From Candidatus Saccharimonadota bacterium (GTDB lineage: Bacteria > Patescibacteriota > Saccharimonadia > Saccharimonadales > EFPC-124), in contig JARIHL010000070.1 in assembly GCA_029288315.1 (NCBI GenBank), positions 1 through 33,018 of the forward strand: 33,018 bases of DNA, in the 5' to 3' direction. Positions within the stretch are counted from its first letter, which is position 1, and each line of letters begins with the position of its first letter. Positions 1 through 22,828 of the stretch are shown one piece after another. Below the pieces are notes generated by a model. It ran no database searches. It was not told the DNA's origin and saw nothing but the letters and a program-made list of their open reading frames with translations. A program made the position numbers and the translations under genes.

Positions 1-11
1 GATGCAGCGTA

Positions 12-45
12 GTCTCGTGGGCTCGGAGATGTGTATAAGAGACAG
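12..45 (+). other. Illumina Nextera read-2 transposase adapter (library artefact at contig end)
   Basis: Exact 34-nt match to GTCTCGTGGGCTCGGAGATGTGTATAAGAGACAG; translates in the ORF as ..SLVGSEMCIRDR.. Confidence 0.98.
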
Positions 46-604
46 AGGTTGGGCGGCGAAAGGCGTTGACAAAACAAGCGGACTAGCACCTGGTGTGATG
101 GTTGAAGTGGCGAGTGCCAGTGATATTATGGACGAGCAAACTGAGCTAGCGAAATCGTTCGATGATTTGCTTAACAAAAAAAATCAAGAGCATCGCCTGG
201 AAGCGGTACAAAAAATGCAAGCAGCTCAACAAGCGACTCAGGACGCCCGTGCGGCCAATCCAGGCCTGGCGCTTGCCAATAATCCACACGCTGACGTTCT
301 ACAAAAACAATTTGTAGCTCAATCTGCCGAACCAGCCTTGATGCCAAAATTTAATCCGTATCCCACAATCCATCAAAAAGTAATCACTCCCTATGACCCA
401 GATCAAGCAGCACCGCCACCACCGCAACCGCCTCTCGTAGCTGCAGCTCCGGCGCAATCAGCCACAAGCTCGATGACACAACCGCTGTCGCCTGATATAA
501 TGAGGCTTGCAAACAATAATGATCTGAGCATTAGTGCAATTGCCCACGAAGCTCATCGTCTTGAAGAAGGCGATGAAGGAGAGGTAGTTATTACGCTTCA
601 CTAA
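46..604 (+). CDS. C-terminal fragment of a conserved hypothetical protein upstream of T4SS-like genes (5' truncated; ORF 2..604 includes adapter)
   Basis: Open frame to TAA at 602-604; genuine sequence begins only after the adapter; Ala/Gln/Pro-rich tail. Confidence 0.7.
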
Positions 605-7766: not shown

Positions 7767-9359
7767 ATGAATATCGAACCACAACGTTTCATCAAACCAG
7801 TAATCATCGCTAGCGTAGTAGTAGCTTTGTTAAGCCTGGGATTATTTATAACTACTCACGGTGTTTTGATCGTTCATAAAGAAGGTGACGGTGAATATAC
7901 ATTGCACAAAACTTCAGATCAACAATTTGATCAACGTCCCAGCAAGAGTTCTCGAATGATAGTAGCGAGCGGGTCTTACACTATAGAATACAAAGATAGC
8001 AATGCCAGCCAGACTAAATATGTTGAAGTCCCCAACTTTTTACGCTCTGCCACGGTAGAATTTAAACAAACAGTGCAACGACAAGTAGAAAGAGTAGCCG
8101 CCAAAACACTTGGCTATCTGATGCGCGGCCCAGCCGGTGAACTCATTGGCGCAGACACCAGTAAAGAAAGTGAATTTACCTACACATATGCTAGTACAGA
8201 CCCTACCGGGCTTAGCGCAAATGCTACCCGCATACCATTTTCTGGCTTGCAAACAATTGCCCACAATAACCAATTGGTCGGTTTCGTACCAACTCAACCA
8301 GTCGAATATGACTTAGCCTTGACCATGCACGATTTTGCGAGCAGTAAGACCACTCGGTCAGACAAAATTTATCGTGAAGCCACGCCACCACGGCTCATCA
8401 GGCCCTCATCTGCCACCAGTAATACGTATGGCGTGTACATAGCCGAGGATCAAACTATTACACTGGATATCTACGAAGGTACTCAAGTTAAACACACCTT
8501 TAAAAACATTCGTGATGTTGCCGAAGGAGCAGAAACTAAAGCAATTGCCCTTGGCAAGCAATATATTGCCATAGGCTTTGGGCGTAACTATGCATCACCG
8601 ACAGCTGATCATGATCAGTACAATTATCAAACCGGCGAGAAGGAGGAGAACCAATCTTCAGAATTAAATCAAGATTATGTAGTAAAAATATTTGATACTA
8701 CCAGCCAGAAAGAGTTACGAAGTTTCAGTTTGGGTAAAACGAACACTATAGCCAACCTATACATAGCCGATGATGGCAAATACGTCGCTGTCGAAGATGG
8801 CACAGGTATTAAAGTTTATGATAGCTTTAACGGCAAGCAAGTATTTGCCTATAATGCAACCAGCGTTACTTCCATTCAGTGGCGCGATAATCAACGGCTA
8901 TTATTCAGCTCAGTACGAGGTGGTTTGTTTGAGCTTAACCCAGGAGAACAATCTGCAGTTACTCTCTTTTCGAGCGATGCCTTGCGCCTCAGTTCATTCC
9001 AAGTAGTTGGCAATCAAATCCTCTTTACGGCATTCTCAAACCGCTCTACCGCTAGCTCCAGCCCTTCACCCGATGGCTATATTGCTTATCTAGATCAAGC
9101 TACGAAGGATAATAACCAGCTCATTACCCAATTACCATTTATTACAAATAGCTTCAAACTTGCTAGTTTGGGGAACACTATTTATGCTGCTAAAAATCAG
9201 TCGTACGTACCAAGGATTGATGCCAGCGGTGATTTTGCCGGGCCGGAATTTCGGCTCATTACAGCTGACGAAACGCTTAGGAAAGAGGTGACTGAATATC
9301 TTCAAAAAACACTTCAGAATTATGAGCAATATACGTTAGTGTTTGGTGAGAATTTATAA
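7767..9359 (+). CDS. Membrane-anchored protein with PEGA-like N-terminal region and beta-propeller-like C-terminal region
   Basis: 530 aa; single N-terminal TM (VIIASVVVALLSLGLFITTHG); repeated blade-like strands (YIADDGKYVAVEDGTGIKVYDSFNGKQVFAY). Confidence 0.6.
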   Translation: MNIEPQRFIKPVIIASVVVALLSLGLFITTHGVLIVHKEGDGEYTLHKTSDQQFDQRPSKSSRMIVASGSYTIEYKDSNASQTKYVEVPNFLRSATVEFKQTVQRQVERVAAKTLGYLMRGPAGELIGADTSKESEFTYTYASTDPTGLSANATRIPFSGLQTIAHNNQLVGFVPTQPVEYDLALTMHDFASSKTTRSDKIYREATPPRLIRPSSATSNTYGVYIAEDQTITLDIYEGTQVKHTFKNIRDVAEGAETKAIALGKQYIAIGFGRNYASPTADHDQYNYQTGEKEENQSSELNQDYVVKIFDTTSQKELRSFSLGKTNTIANLYIADDGKYVAVEDGTGIKVYDSFNGKQVFAYNATSVTSIQWRDNQRLLFSSVRGGLFELNPGEQSAVTLFSSDALRLSSFQVVGNQILFTAFSNRSTASSSPSPDGYIAYLDQATKDNNQLITQLPFITNSFKLASLGNTIYAAKNQSYVPRIDASGDFAGPEFRLITADETLRKEVTEYLQKTLQNYEQYTLVFGENL

Positions 9360-9507
9360 GCAGCTGCTGGAGATTTCTAAACACTGGGGTGGCACGCCAC
9401 GGGGCTGCCCCAAAAATGTTTTTTATGTACTCATAAAAAAATTTTAGGGGCGGATGGCGTGACAGGACCCCTTCTTACGAAAATCTCCAGCAGCTGCTTA
9501 TAAATTC
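9350..9507. repeat. Giant intergenic hairpin E1 (27-bp perfect arms 9350-9376 / 9481-9507)
   Basis: gaatttataagcagctgctggagattt and its exact reverse complement; inner pairings ggggt/acccc, cacgcca/tggcgtg, gcccc/ggggc, ttttttatg/cataaaaaa continue to the apex. Confidence 0.92.
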
Positions 9508-10619: not shown

Positions 10620-10729
10620 GCTAAAACTATCCCACACTTCTTTTCCTAAACCGTGTTACCTGACCAAAAGGTCAGGTAACACCACCGGGAAGGCTGTGTT
10701 CAGGAAAAGAAGTGTGGGATAGTTTTAGC
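10620..10729. repeat. Intergenic hairpin E2 (28-bp perfect arms 10620-10647 / 10702-10729) with inner 13-bp stem hairpin 10653-10682
   Basis: gctaaaactatcccacacttcttttcct and exact reverse complement; inner gtgttacctgacc-aaaa-ggtcaggtaacac. Confidence 0.92.
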
Positions 10730-15884: not shown

Positions 15885-15893
15885 TGCTATACT
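15885..15893 (+). promoter_or_regulatory. Extended -10 TGCTATACT, likely leaderless NUDIX gene promoter
   Basis: TGCTATACT-N8-ATG(15902). Confidence 0.45.
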
Positions 15894-15901
15894 TGAATAC
15901 T

Positions 15902-16381
15902 ATGAACCAACCTATTATTCCTGCAAGTGATAAGATTGATTTGCTTCGCGGTATTGACCATATCGGGATATCAGCTTCATTCGTAGTACATGATGGCCAG
16001 GGAAATGTTCTCTTGCAAAAGCGTAGTCAGCGATGTCGTGATGAACAAGGGCGTTGGGATGTGGGCGGTGGCGCAATTGAATTCGGTGAGCCTTTGGAAG
16101 ATGCAGTGCGCCGGGAAATTAGGGAAGAACTGATGGCCGAGCCACTAGCTATCGATTTTTTAACAGTATACGATGCACATCGTGTGAGTGCTGATGGCCT
16201 TCCTACGCATTGGGTAGCGATTATGCACGCTGTTAAAATTGACCCAACAAAAGTGAGCATTGGCGAGCCCCATAAGATAGATGAAATTGGCTGGTTTACG
16301 AGTGATACATTGCCAACACCTCTCCATTCGCAGTTTTGGAAAAGCTATGAAGTTGCCCTGAAGAAGGGGATTGTAAAGTAG
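15902..16381 (+). CDS. NUDIX hydrolase
   Basis: GGAIEFGEPLEDAVRREIREELMAEP NUDIX box (Gx5Ex7REUxEExGU-like); ORF track start 15893 is TTG, ATG at 15902 preferred. Confidence 0.88.
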   Translation: MNQPIIPASDKIDLLRGIDHIGISASFVVHDGQGNVLLQKRSQRCRDEQGRWDVGGGAIEFGEPLEDAVRREIREELMAEPLAIDFLTVYDAHRVSADGLPTHWVAIMHAVKIDPTKVSIGEPHKIDEIGWFTSDTLPTPLHSQFWKSYEVALKKGIVK

Positions 16382-16389
16382 CTTGACTA

Positions 16390-16518
16390 CTCGTTCGCTG
16401 CTGGGGTACATATCCTGCCTCATAGAGGTTCGACTTTTCCAGGAGGAACGAAGCGAGCTGTTTTTGCGAGCGGAGTGTTCTTCTATGAGGCAGGATATGT
16501 ACCCCAGCAGCGAACGAG
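16390..16518. repeat. Intergenic hairpin E3 (37-bp perfect arms 16390-16426 / 16482-16518) with conserved loop shared with E4
   Basis: ctcgttcgctgctggggtacatatcctgcctcataga and exact reverse complement; loop contains agcgagctgtttttgcgagcggagtgttcttcta. Confidence 0.95.
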
Positions 16519-16524
16519 GTGGTT

Positions 16525-17625
16525 TTATTCCAAAATATTTTTATAAACCGCTAAGGTTTGCTGGGCCATATATTTCCATGAGTAGCGTTGAGCCACCAGT
16601 TGACCATTGTTGATTAATCTTTGCCGCAACGCATTATCTGTTATTACAGCATCTATTTTATTTTTCATATCTTCAACGCTGAGAGGGTCGAAGTAATGAA
16701 CCCCATCACCGTAGACCTCTGGCAGGCAAGTGGCATTACTACTAGTGACGGCCGCACCAGAAGCCATAGCTTCCAATCCTGGTAAACCAAACCCCTCCAT
16801 TAGGGAAGGAAATACATATGTCGCACAATGTTTGTATAACCAAACGAGGTGACCATCTGATACAAAATCGGTAAAAATAATGCCTTTAAAACCATTTCCT
16901 TCAGCCCAAATCTTATTGCGTACTAACGGCCGGCCGTTTTTACCCGTTAAACGGCCAACCAATACTAATAATAATTCTGGATGCTTCAGGCGTAATTTTT
17001 GATGAGCTTGCATTAAACGACGAATATTCTTATAGTCGCTTTGTTGACCCACATACAGTAAAAACTGTTTATTAACGAGCGGTTGATATACTACTGGCTT
17101 GACCGAGCCAATGTCACAACCTTCGTACGTAACCGTTACTTTTTGAGGACTAATCCGTGCGAATTTCACATAAGCCTTTTTGGTAAACTCACTTGGTGTC
17201 AGAATGTGCGCTGATGTGTGAGCGATAACGTAAAAGACAAATCGGCCAATCAATTGCTTAAAATGGAAAATAATAAAATCTTTATCGCTGTTGTATGTAT
17301 TAAGCAAGTTTAAGTCATGTATAGTCGTAACGTGTTTGCCGCGATACAAAATAGGTTGCTGTGGCATACAAAAATGTACTAAATCGGGCTTCAGGCGATT
17401 GAGTAATCTTAACAAACCTGCCTGTTCGGCGAGGCTGTAGTTGTCAAAATCAGCCTCAATAACATTAAACTGAGGATTCCGAGGTTGGTAGAAACCAATA
17501 TCTTTTCGAGGCACCAAAATGAAGTATTCGTTTTTTTTATCAAGCTCTTCAAGGTAATGCACCAGCCGTTCAACATAGCGGCCTGTGCTGGAATTAATAA
17601 TACGTGCATCGATGGCAATTTTCAT
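16525..17625 (-). CDS. GT4-type glycosyltransferase family 1 protein
   Basis: 366 aa; TYEGCD, LLYVGQQSDYKNIRRLMQAH, FPSLMEGFGLPGLEAMASGAAVTSSNATCLPEVYGDG. Confidence 0.92.
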   Translation of the reverse strand: MKIAIDARIINSSTGRYVERLVHYLEELDKKNEYFILVPRKDIGFYQPRNPQFNVIEADFDNYSLAEQAGLLRLLNRLKPDLVHFCMPQQPILYRGKHVTTIHDLNLLNTYNSDKDFIIFHFKQLIGRFVFYVIAHTSAHILTPSEFTKKAYVKFARISPQKVTVTYEGCDIGSVKPVVYQPLVNKQFLLYVGQQSDYKNIRRLMQAHQKLRLKHPELLLVLVGRLTGKNGRPLVRNKIWAEGNGFKGIIFTDFVSDGHLVWLYKHCATYVFPSLMEGFGLPGLEAMASGAAVTSSNATCLPEVYGDGVHYFDPLSVEDMKNKIDAVITDNALRQRLINNGQLVAQRYSWKYMAQQTLAVYKNILE

Positions 17626-21761: not shown

Positions 21762-22709
21762 GTGATGGAAATTGATGATACGGGTGAACGTCTGATCGCT
21801 GAAGGTAATGAACAAACATTGACTTATGGCGAACATCTCTCTCGTTATTCGGCTGTAAAAGGCGTTGTGCAGGGTAAAACAGTGCTCGATATCGCGAGTG
21901 GTACTGGCTACGGTACGAAATTAATTGCTCAGTATGCCAAAAAAGTGTACGGTATTGATTATAGTGAAGATGCCATCACCTATTGTAAGGCGCATCATCC
22001 ATCGACAAATATTGAATACCAGGTTGGTGATGCGCACGACATCCCACTGGCTGACAATGCGGTCGATACAGTGGTAAGCCTTGAGACGATTGAGCACCTT
22101 AAATCACCAGAAAAATTTGTGGCTGAAGTAAAACGTGTCATGAATGATGATGGTGTATTTGTAGTGTCGACGCCAAACGACGATGAATTTATTGAAGGTA
22201 ATGTCTTCCATATTCATGAATTTACTTTGAGAGAACTGAAAAAGCTGCTTGAAAAACATTTTAAGTACATTACTTATTATTATCAGGGTGTATATTATGC
22301 TGCCGCCCTATTAGATGAACCAAGCTTCACAAACTCACGAGATTGGGAGGGCATGGTTCACAAAACGTTTGGCCAGCCAATTAATAAGGCGATTTATTTT
22401 ATTGCCCTGGCCTCCAATAAGCCGTTAACAGATGTTTTAACGCAAAATGTCGTTGTGGCTGATAGTTGGAATGCTAAGGAAGACATACTGCGTGATCGAG
22501 CTCGCCAAGAATATCTTCGTCAGCTTGAGGAGCAAATAGAGAATGATGAACAGCGCTTAAGAGACAGTCATAAAGAGAATGAGACCCTACAAGTACGTAA
22601 TCGAGAAATGCAAACTGAACTTGAGTCAATAAAAGGTTCTCGTGGTTGGAAGCTGCTTGAAAAAGGTTGGCGGATTAAGGGTAAATTGAGGCCAAAGAAA
22701 CAGCGCTAG
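21762..22709 (+). CDS. Class I SAM-dependent methyltransferase with C-terminal coiled coil
   Basis: 315 aa; VLDIASGTGYGTKLIAQYAKKVYGIDYSEDAI, SLETIEHL; C-terminus QLEEQIENDEQRLRDSHKENETLQVRNREMQTELESIKGSRGWKLLEKGWRIKGKL. Confidence 0.88.
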   Translation: MMEIDDTGERLIAEGNEQTLTYGEHLSRYSAVKGVVQGKTVLDIASGTGYGTKLIAQYAKKVYGIDYSEDAITYCKAHHPSTNIEYQVGDAHDIPLADNAVDTVVSLETIEHLKSPEKFVAEVKRVMNDDGVFVVSTPNDDEFIEGNVFHIHEFTLRELKKLLEKHFKYITYYYQGVYYAAALLDEPSFTNSRDWEGMVHKTFGQPINKAIYFIALASNKPLTDVLTQNVVVADSWNAKEDILRDRARQEYLRQLEEQIENDEQRLRDSHKENETLQVRNREMQTELESIKGSRGWKLLEKGWRIKGKLRPKKQR

Positions 22710-22828
22710 TTCCACGCAAGCACTCCTTCTTTCATAGAAGCTCGACCTTCTCGGGAGAAAGGCAGCGAGCTGTTTGCGAGCGGACTGTTCTTCTACGAAA
22801 GAAGGAGTGCTTGCGTGGAACTAGCGCT
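22702..22828. repeat. Intergenic hairpin E4 (32-bp perfect arms 22702-22733 / 22797-22828) with conserved loop shared with E3
   Basis: agcgctagttccacgcaagcactccttctttc and exact reverse complement, extending by tagaag/cttcta after one mismatch; loop contains agcgagctgtttgcgagcggactgttcttcta. Confidence 0.95.

Follow-up and report, generated by a model that had tools for sequence, protein, structure and literature searches.

In E. coli, template switching at imperfect palindromes makes them perfect (PMC7202029). It has also been suggested to give rise to RNA hairpins and to maintain them (PMC8794818), as well as to homogenise the arms of inverted repeats (PMC8604942). Long coding palindromes in nematomorph mitochondria show concerted evolution (PMC6649704). 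The window, by which we mean the whole 33,018-nt stretch of Candidatus Saccharimonadota DNA that was analysed, contains two long hairpins, E3 and E4, with the following parts and neighbours:

15893..16381, + strand: Nudix-like ORF ending 8 nt before E3, named from a reading of the sequence
16390..16426, + strand: E3 left arm, 37 nt, copy-specific, with an innermost TCATAGA common to other F1b copies
16429..16479, + strand: E3 F1 core, the conserved 48-51 nt loop core, from covariance-model matches and alignment A1
16482..16518, + strand: E3 right arm, exact reverse complement of the left arm
16525..17625, - strand: glycosyltransferase-like ORF ending 6 nt after E3, from the ORF listing and comparison with a homologue in the relative G002
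22702..22740, + strand: E4 left arm, starting with 8 nt (AGCGCTAG) shared with the final codons and stop of the upstream ORF (21762-22709)
22741..22789, + strand: E4 F1 core, from loop alignment and a covariance-model match
22790..22828, + strand: E4 right arm, with one mismatch

The 37-nt arms of E3 are 100% complementary and separated by 55 nt, exactly where the initial annotation had placed them, and the 39-nt arms of E4 are 97% complementary. Folded as RNA, E3 reaches -90.8 kcal/mol (z = -13.4) and E4 -82.8 kcal/mol (z = -11.5), with 0 of 200 shuffles equally good in each case. The kinship first noticed between the two loops was confirmed (81% identity over 69 aligned columns), as was the dissimilarity of the stems, whose evident similarity is limited to the innermost ~9 bp (TCATAGA[AG]G). 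We refer to this class, with a common core, a common innermost ~9 bp and a remaining arm unique to each copy, as F1b. E3 lies between convergent ORFs, with a + strand stop at 16381 and a - strand stop at 16525, and the C-terminus of the glycosyltransferase-like ORF matches that of its G002 homologue (..VYKNILE* vs ..VYNKVLEK*). The sequence that follows is gtggttttatt after E3 and tgacaatatt after E4. The earlier description of E3 as placed between convergent genes and lacking a clear U-tract was thus correct. An intrinsic (rho-independent) terminator was rejected for both hairpins, which have a loop of 48-55 nt, not a short one, and no T-run downstream.

BLAST of the E3 loop against its own 1.2-Mb genome gave 39 matches. 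Among the first 30, almost every match is a 48-nt conserved core centred in an inverted repeat, mostly of 25-44 bp, whose sequence varies from copy to copy. The initial annotation had made its proposal depend on further copies of this core, and a covariance model built from 34 F1 copies found 50 matches in the own genome and none in the 60 relatives searched, two of them from the same family. Copies with decayed F1 cores tend to have no arms. Two more families have the same architecture: F2, with a different core and about 38 copies genome-wide, and F3, with about 25. Each has a member in the window:

9350..9507, + strand: E1, an F3 element with a core of ~104 nt (GGGGTGGCACGC..GCGTGACAGGACCCC) and 27-bp arms
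10620..10729, + strand: E2, an F2 element with core cgtgttacctgacc..ggtcaggtaacaccaccggg, between recF and dnaN

Both convergent ORFs have their stop codons (9359 and 9498) within the E1 arms. By inspection, no short word is common to the F1, F2 and F3 cores, which leaves the suggested DNA-uptake-like signal unsupported.

An unbiased hairpin scan covered 375 of the 1204 kb of the own genome, the core searches covering all of it. The scan found 39 hairpins with arms of at least 22 and loops of at least 30, whereas two genomes of the same family and of similar GC had none in 615 kb (P about 4e-17). Together with the copy counts of the three families, this means that the hairpins have expanded specifically in this lineage, to about 110 elements or more. 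The own genome is a fragmented assembly of 89 contigs, and some elements lie at contig ends. In scans of genome contigs and viral contigs the F1 core pattern had no matches. The F2 pattern had none in viral contigs and the F3 pattern two; the latter also had 10 matches among genome contigs, scattered over unrelated, mostly GC-rich organisms and judged to be chance. We found no description of these elements in the open-access literature. A fourth family, F4, was also observed, a palindromic MITE-like repeat with conserved ends TGGCAAGTATACCCCTACG (L080:13650-13820, L084:16058-16190, L088:18030-18112 and L086:8428-8527), three copies of which have a perfect centre palindrome of 24-26 bp. F2 and F1 elements adjoin at L075:1453-1700 and L081:14695-14930, which suggests nested or repeated insertion at one place.

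The explanation that we favour, at a probability of roughly two in three, is that an IS4-like transposon moved MITEs (F2 and a subset of F1, F1a), that template switching then rewrote their stems, and that E3 and E4 are copies of this kind. Both would belong to a family of mobile hairpins, short, non-coding and confined to the lineage, with a conserved F1 core and inverted-repeat arms. An IS4-like DDE transposase of the own genome would move F1a and F2 in trans. Once inserted, the perfect hairpin would become a place where replication forks often switch template by folding back (quasipalindrome switching): the nascent strand would fold back and copy one arm, erasing or mirroring mutations and indels of the arms. 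Copying past the arm end would write inverted host flank on the opposite side, and such overshoot might sometimes overwrite the target duplication or enter the last codons of a gene. Over time each copy would come to have its own self-complementary stem, its core still recognisable. E3 and E4, as F1b, and F3 would be end-states with no canonical terminal repeat (TIR) left, and F1b would probably derive from F1a-like copies. What can be read directly from the DNA is the copy number, the lineage restriction, the TIR shared with an IS, the target duplication (TSD), the arm identity set against TSD decay, and the flank extension.

Mobility is most evident in F1a and F2. Two near-identical F1 copies (C16:3771 and C81:14388) have unrelated flanks and the same sharp ends, CTGC..GCAG, and one F2 element is found in two places with unrelated flanks (C25:11870 and C25:35737). 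DDE_Tnp_1 transposases are present in the own genome. One of them, an ORF of 365 aa at C47:1-1211 with its best NCBIfam match, below cut-off, to the IS4 family, is bounded by CTGCCCCACCCTCACTTCACCCA and its imperfect complement TGGGTGAAGTGGGGGTGGTGCAG, the outer arm sequence of F1a and F2. The arm consensus of F2 and F1a begins with CTGCACCACCCTCA, the terminal repeat of this resident IS4-like IS; many F1 copies and most F2 copies start in this way, and the CTGC[AC]CCACCCTCA.. ends of F1a and F2 match the IS, as expected of MITEs. In genome G108, a 64% homologue of the C47 transposase has the TIR CTGACCCACCTGCACTTCA and 9-bp direct repeats (TATTTAAAT/TATTTAAGT). In agreement with this length, k = 9 is the one spacing at which the flanks of 17 canonical F1a/F2 copies match (z = 5.2), spacings of 5-8 and 10-12 giving |z| < 2, and 7 of the 17 match at 6 or more of the 9 positions (P = 4e-10). 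As F1a and F2 have both a TIR in common with the IS and a 9-bp target duplication, we class them, on sequence evidence, as MITEs of the IS4-like lineage on C47, and their movement in trans by its transposase is probable. F1b and F3 copies show no TSD above null and no TIR, and the E3 and E4 arms compare with the TIR at z about 0; for these copies we infer mobility from dispersal only. The initial annotation had listed a small palindromic mobile element among its options, and the dispersed copies, the two recent copies in unrelated flanks, and the IS terminal repeat and 9-bp TSD of F1a and F2 speak for it. A REP/RAYT or IS200/IS605-derived element was ruled out by the absence of a Y1 transposase (PF01797) from the own genome. 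BLAST of flanks and arms against the sampled own genome gave no donor site from which the arms could have been copied, and no empty sites. Other transposases were observed at L202 and L204 (and L203, L205 and L207), IS982-type, IS701-type and further DDE_Tnp_1, with TIRs unrelated to the hairpins.

The behaviour of the arms points to copying after insertion. Within a copy the arms are 98.5% (F1), 98.0% (F2) and 96.9% (F3) identical, whereas left arms of different copies are 39.7%, 59.4% and 33.6% identical, on shuffled baselines of 28%, 42% and 28%. Homologous F2 arms vary in length from 27 to 30 nt, and each length is mirrored in the partner arm. The two sites of a target duplication are identical at insertion. 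In TSD-bearing copies, mismatches counted by hand amount to 14/63 in the TSDs and 5/213 in the arms (P = 1.4e-6; P = 0.002 in a strict set with only duplications matching at 7 or more of 9). Since the arms are far less diverged than the TSDs of the same copies, they were matched after insertion. A palindromic extension of 4-8 bp outside the CTGC end is found in 4 of the 17 canonical copies, where ~0.06 is expected (P = 5e-7); three of these four have no TSD match (direct repeat), and L077 (AATT) is ambiguous. At L082:11537 the arm starts at the GTAG of the left gene's stop, this gene keeps its conserved C-terminus (ERRLGK* vs ERRYGK* in G002), and the mirror copy ends the convergent gene. Among gene-overlapping arms, the donor side is informative only there and, weakly, at L074; E1 and L075:5041 are ambiguous. 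Scored against the TIR, F1 arms form a continuous series from z = 12 down to 0, which fits gradual overwriting. Arm identity and flank extension together fit fold-back copying that corrects the arms and can run past them. We infer that template switching, and not selection, homogenises the arms. Against this view, no switch event is seen directly, as the genomes compared include no close relative that has the site empty or with another allele. The arms could equally stay matched under purifying selection for pairing, and simple decay of F1a, with neither survivorship nor selection, does not predict the excess of F1b and F3 at stop codons. Finally, loss of SbcC was rejected as a lineage-specific cause: across the sampled order SbcC is either missing or scores below cut-off, which makes its loss permissive at most, and same-family relatives are likewise without it, yet have no such hairpins.

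Gene context, which rests on simple ORF calls, differs between the classes. Within 30 nt of a stop codon lie 22/34 F1b/F3 copies and 13/43 F1a/F2 copies (P = 0.003), and last codons are overlapped by 12/34 and 0/43, respectively. Convergent and divergent settings number 9 v 5 for F1b/F3 and 3 v 14 for F1a/F2 (P = 0.01). The clustering of F1b and F3 at stop codons could reflect survivorship, 3'-end function or targeting. One tentative and rather unlikely alternative for these two classes is that the conserved DNA core makes its own long perfect stem from adjacent host sequence. It would nucleate fold-back copying, during or after insertion and with a preference for the 3' ends of genes, where the hairpin would be kept as a 3'-end structure.

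It is also unlikely, in our view, that the hairpins are a new structured RNA or bidirectional 3'-end element, in which selection would act on the pairing and keep them as terminators or stabilisers of mRNA 3' ends. The initial annotation had proposed both; the RNA family stays hypothetical, and a bidirectional 3'-end element may apply to F1b (E3 and E4) and F3 copies but not to F2, nor to an F3 copy between atpD and atpC. The position of F1b and F3 near stops and in convergent settings, opposite to that of F1a and F2, favours a 3'-end role, as does the ordinary bidirectional terminator hairpin that G002 has at the E3 site (L106:4138-4180). However, F2 copies are often in divergent, promoter-bearing regions (12/33), E2 separates recF from dnaN, and a 182-bp F3 hairpin (L074:13834-14015) lies inside the ATP synthase operon and interrupts atpD and atpC, two genes that overlap at TAATG in G002. 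As for an RNA family, stem covariation in alignment A1 is strong, core helix 2 included, and one helix of the F1 core (CCTTCC/GGAAGG) has compensatory changes at a few pairs. Nevertheless, arm homogenisation yields an equal signal, and stem covariation is expected from such homogenisation at the DNA level alone. Among unpaired or non-Watson-Crick cells of the arms, G-U is not significantly biased to one strand (11 v 8, P = 0.65), a comparison of little power. Rfam gave 0 matches over the gathering threshold in the window, weaker matches being only to miRNA-precursor long hairpins, and a T-run is missing. Moreover, selection needs neither mirrored indels nor the growth of palindromes into flanks.

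About 30 intergenic perfect short-loop hairpins of 13-21 bp, without T-runs, were observed in the own-genome sample (e.g. L076:3651, L079:8703 and L087:12154). They are concentrated between convergent genes, are less common in relatives, and are possibly U-less terminators. A perfect 21-bp one adjoins a tRNA-like gene at L061:1280-1330, between F2 and F1 elements.

Such hairpins bear on a further, quite improbable reading, by which the F1, F2 and F3 cores were inserted into hairpins that already existed, in the loops of terminators or IS-TIR palindromes, the arms being old host palindromes. It would explain why the cores are central in palindromes in three families, and F1b and F3 do sit where terminators sit in a genome with many short-loop intergenic hairpins. 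The latter, however, have only 13-21 bp against arms of 27-44 bp, and they seldom overlap coding ends. Homogenisation within copies and flank extension in TSD-bearing MITE families would be left unexplained. An assembly or amplification artefact (chimeric inverted repeats) is barely credible, for although contig ends carry untrimmed adapter and several elements lie at contig ends, the cores are common to more than 100 copies, the flanks run into unique genes with conserved neighbours (atpD/atpC, recF/dnaN), and chimeras cannot produce the TSD statistics. The adapter is Nextera (GTCTCGTGGGCTCGGAGATGTGTATAAGAGACAG), seen at window positions 1-45 and at the ends of contigs C25 and C86; the ORF at window positions 2-604 starts with an adapter-derived peptide.

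At least some of the more than 100 hairpin elements were probably spread by a resident transposon. Under the transposon and template-switching explanation, stem halves appear to be rewritten by DNA copying, each copy being self-matched though the stems share little or no sequence. This could provide a natural system in which repair and extension of palindromes by template switching are measurable on more than 100 elements, the target duplications serving as internal clocks. A further lesson is one of caution: a bacterial repeat whose stems covary strongly is not necessarily a functional RNA, as DNA copying can give an equal signal. If F1b and F3 are true working 3'-end structures, a bacterium with a small genome would have recruited mobile hairpins as the ends of its genes.

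Compared with known systems, F1a and F2 resemble MITEs in being short, non-coding and intergenic, with the TIRs of a resident IS, direct target repeats and a stable hairpin fold. Nonetheless, TIRs are normally the conserved part of a MITE, while here it is the core that is conserved, and the stems, though they stay perfect, differ from copy to copy; F1b (E3 and E4) and F3 are also without TIR or TSD. REP/REPIN (PMC3733652, PMC3116915) are likewise palindromic intergenic repeats in high copy, but here there is no Y1 (RAYT-type) transposase, the stems are far longer and the likely mover is a DDE IS. The palindromes of nematomorph mitochondria (PMC6649704) are similar in their many long perfect inverted repeats, their concerted arms and the template switching proposed for them; they differ in lying inside mitochondrial coding genes and, in the accessible text of that source, no shared conserved core is described. 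Quasipalindrome template switching (PMC7202029, PMC8794818) has in common with our elements the perfecting of arms, the mirroring of multi-base tracts, and the creation or lengthening of palindromes. It is described there as single events or in RNA genes, whereas here it would have acted on more than 100 dispersed mobile elements of one genome, with their TSDs as internal clocks.
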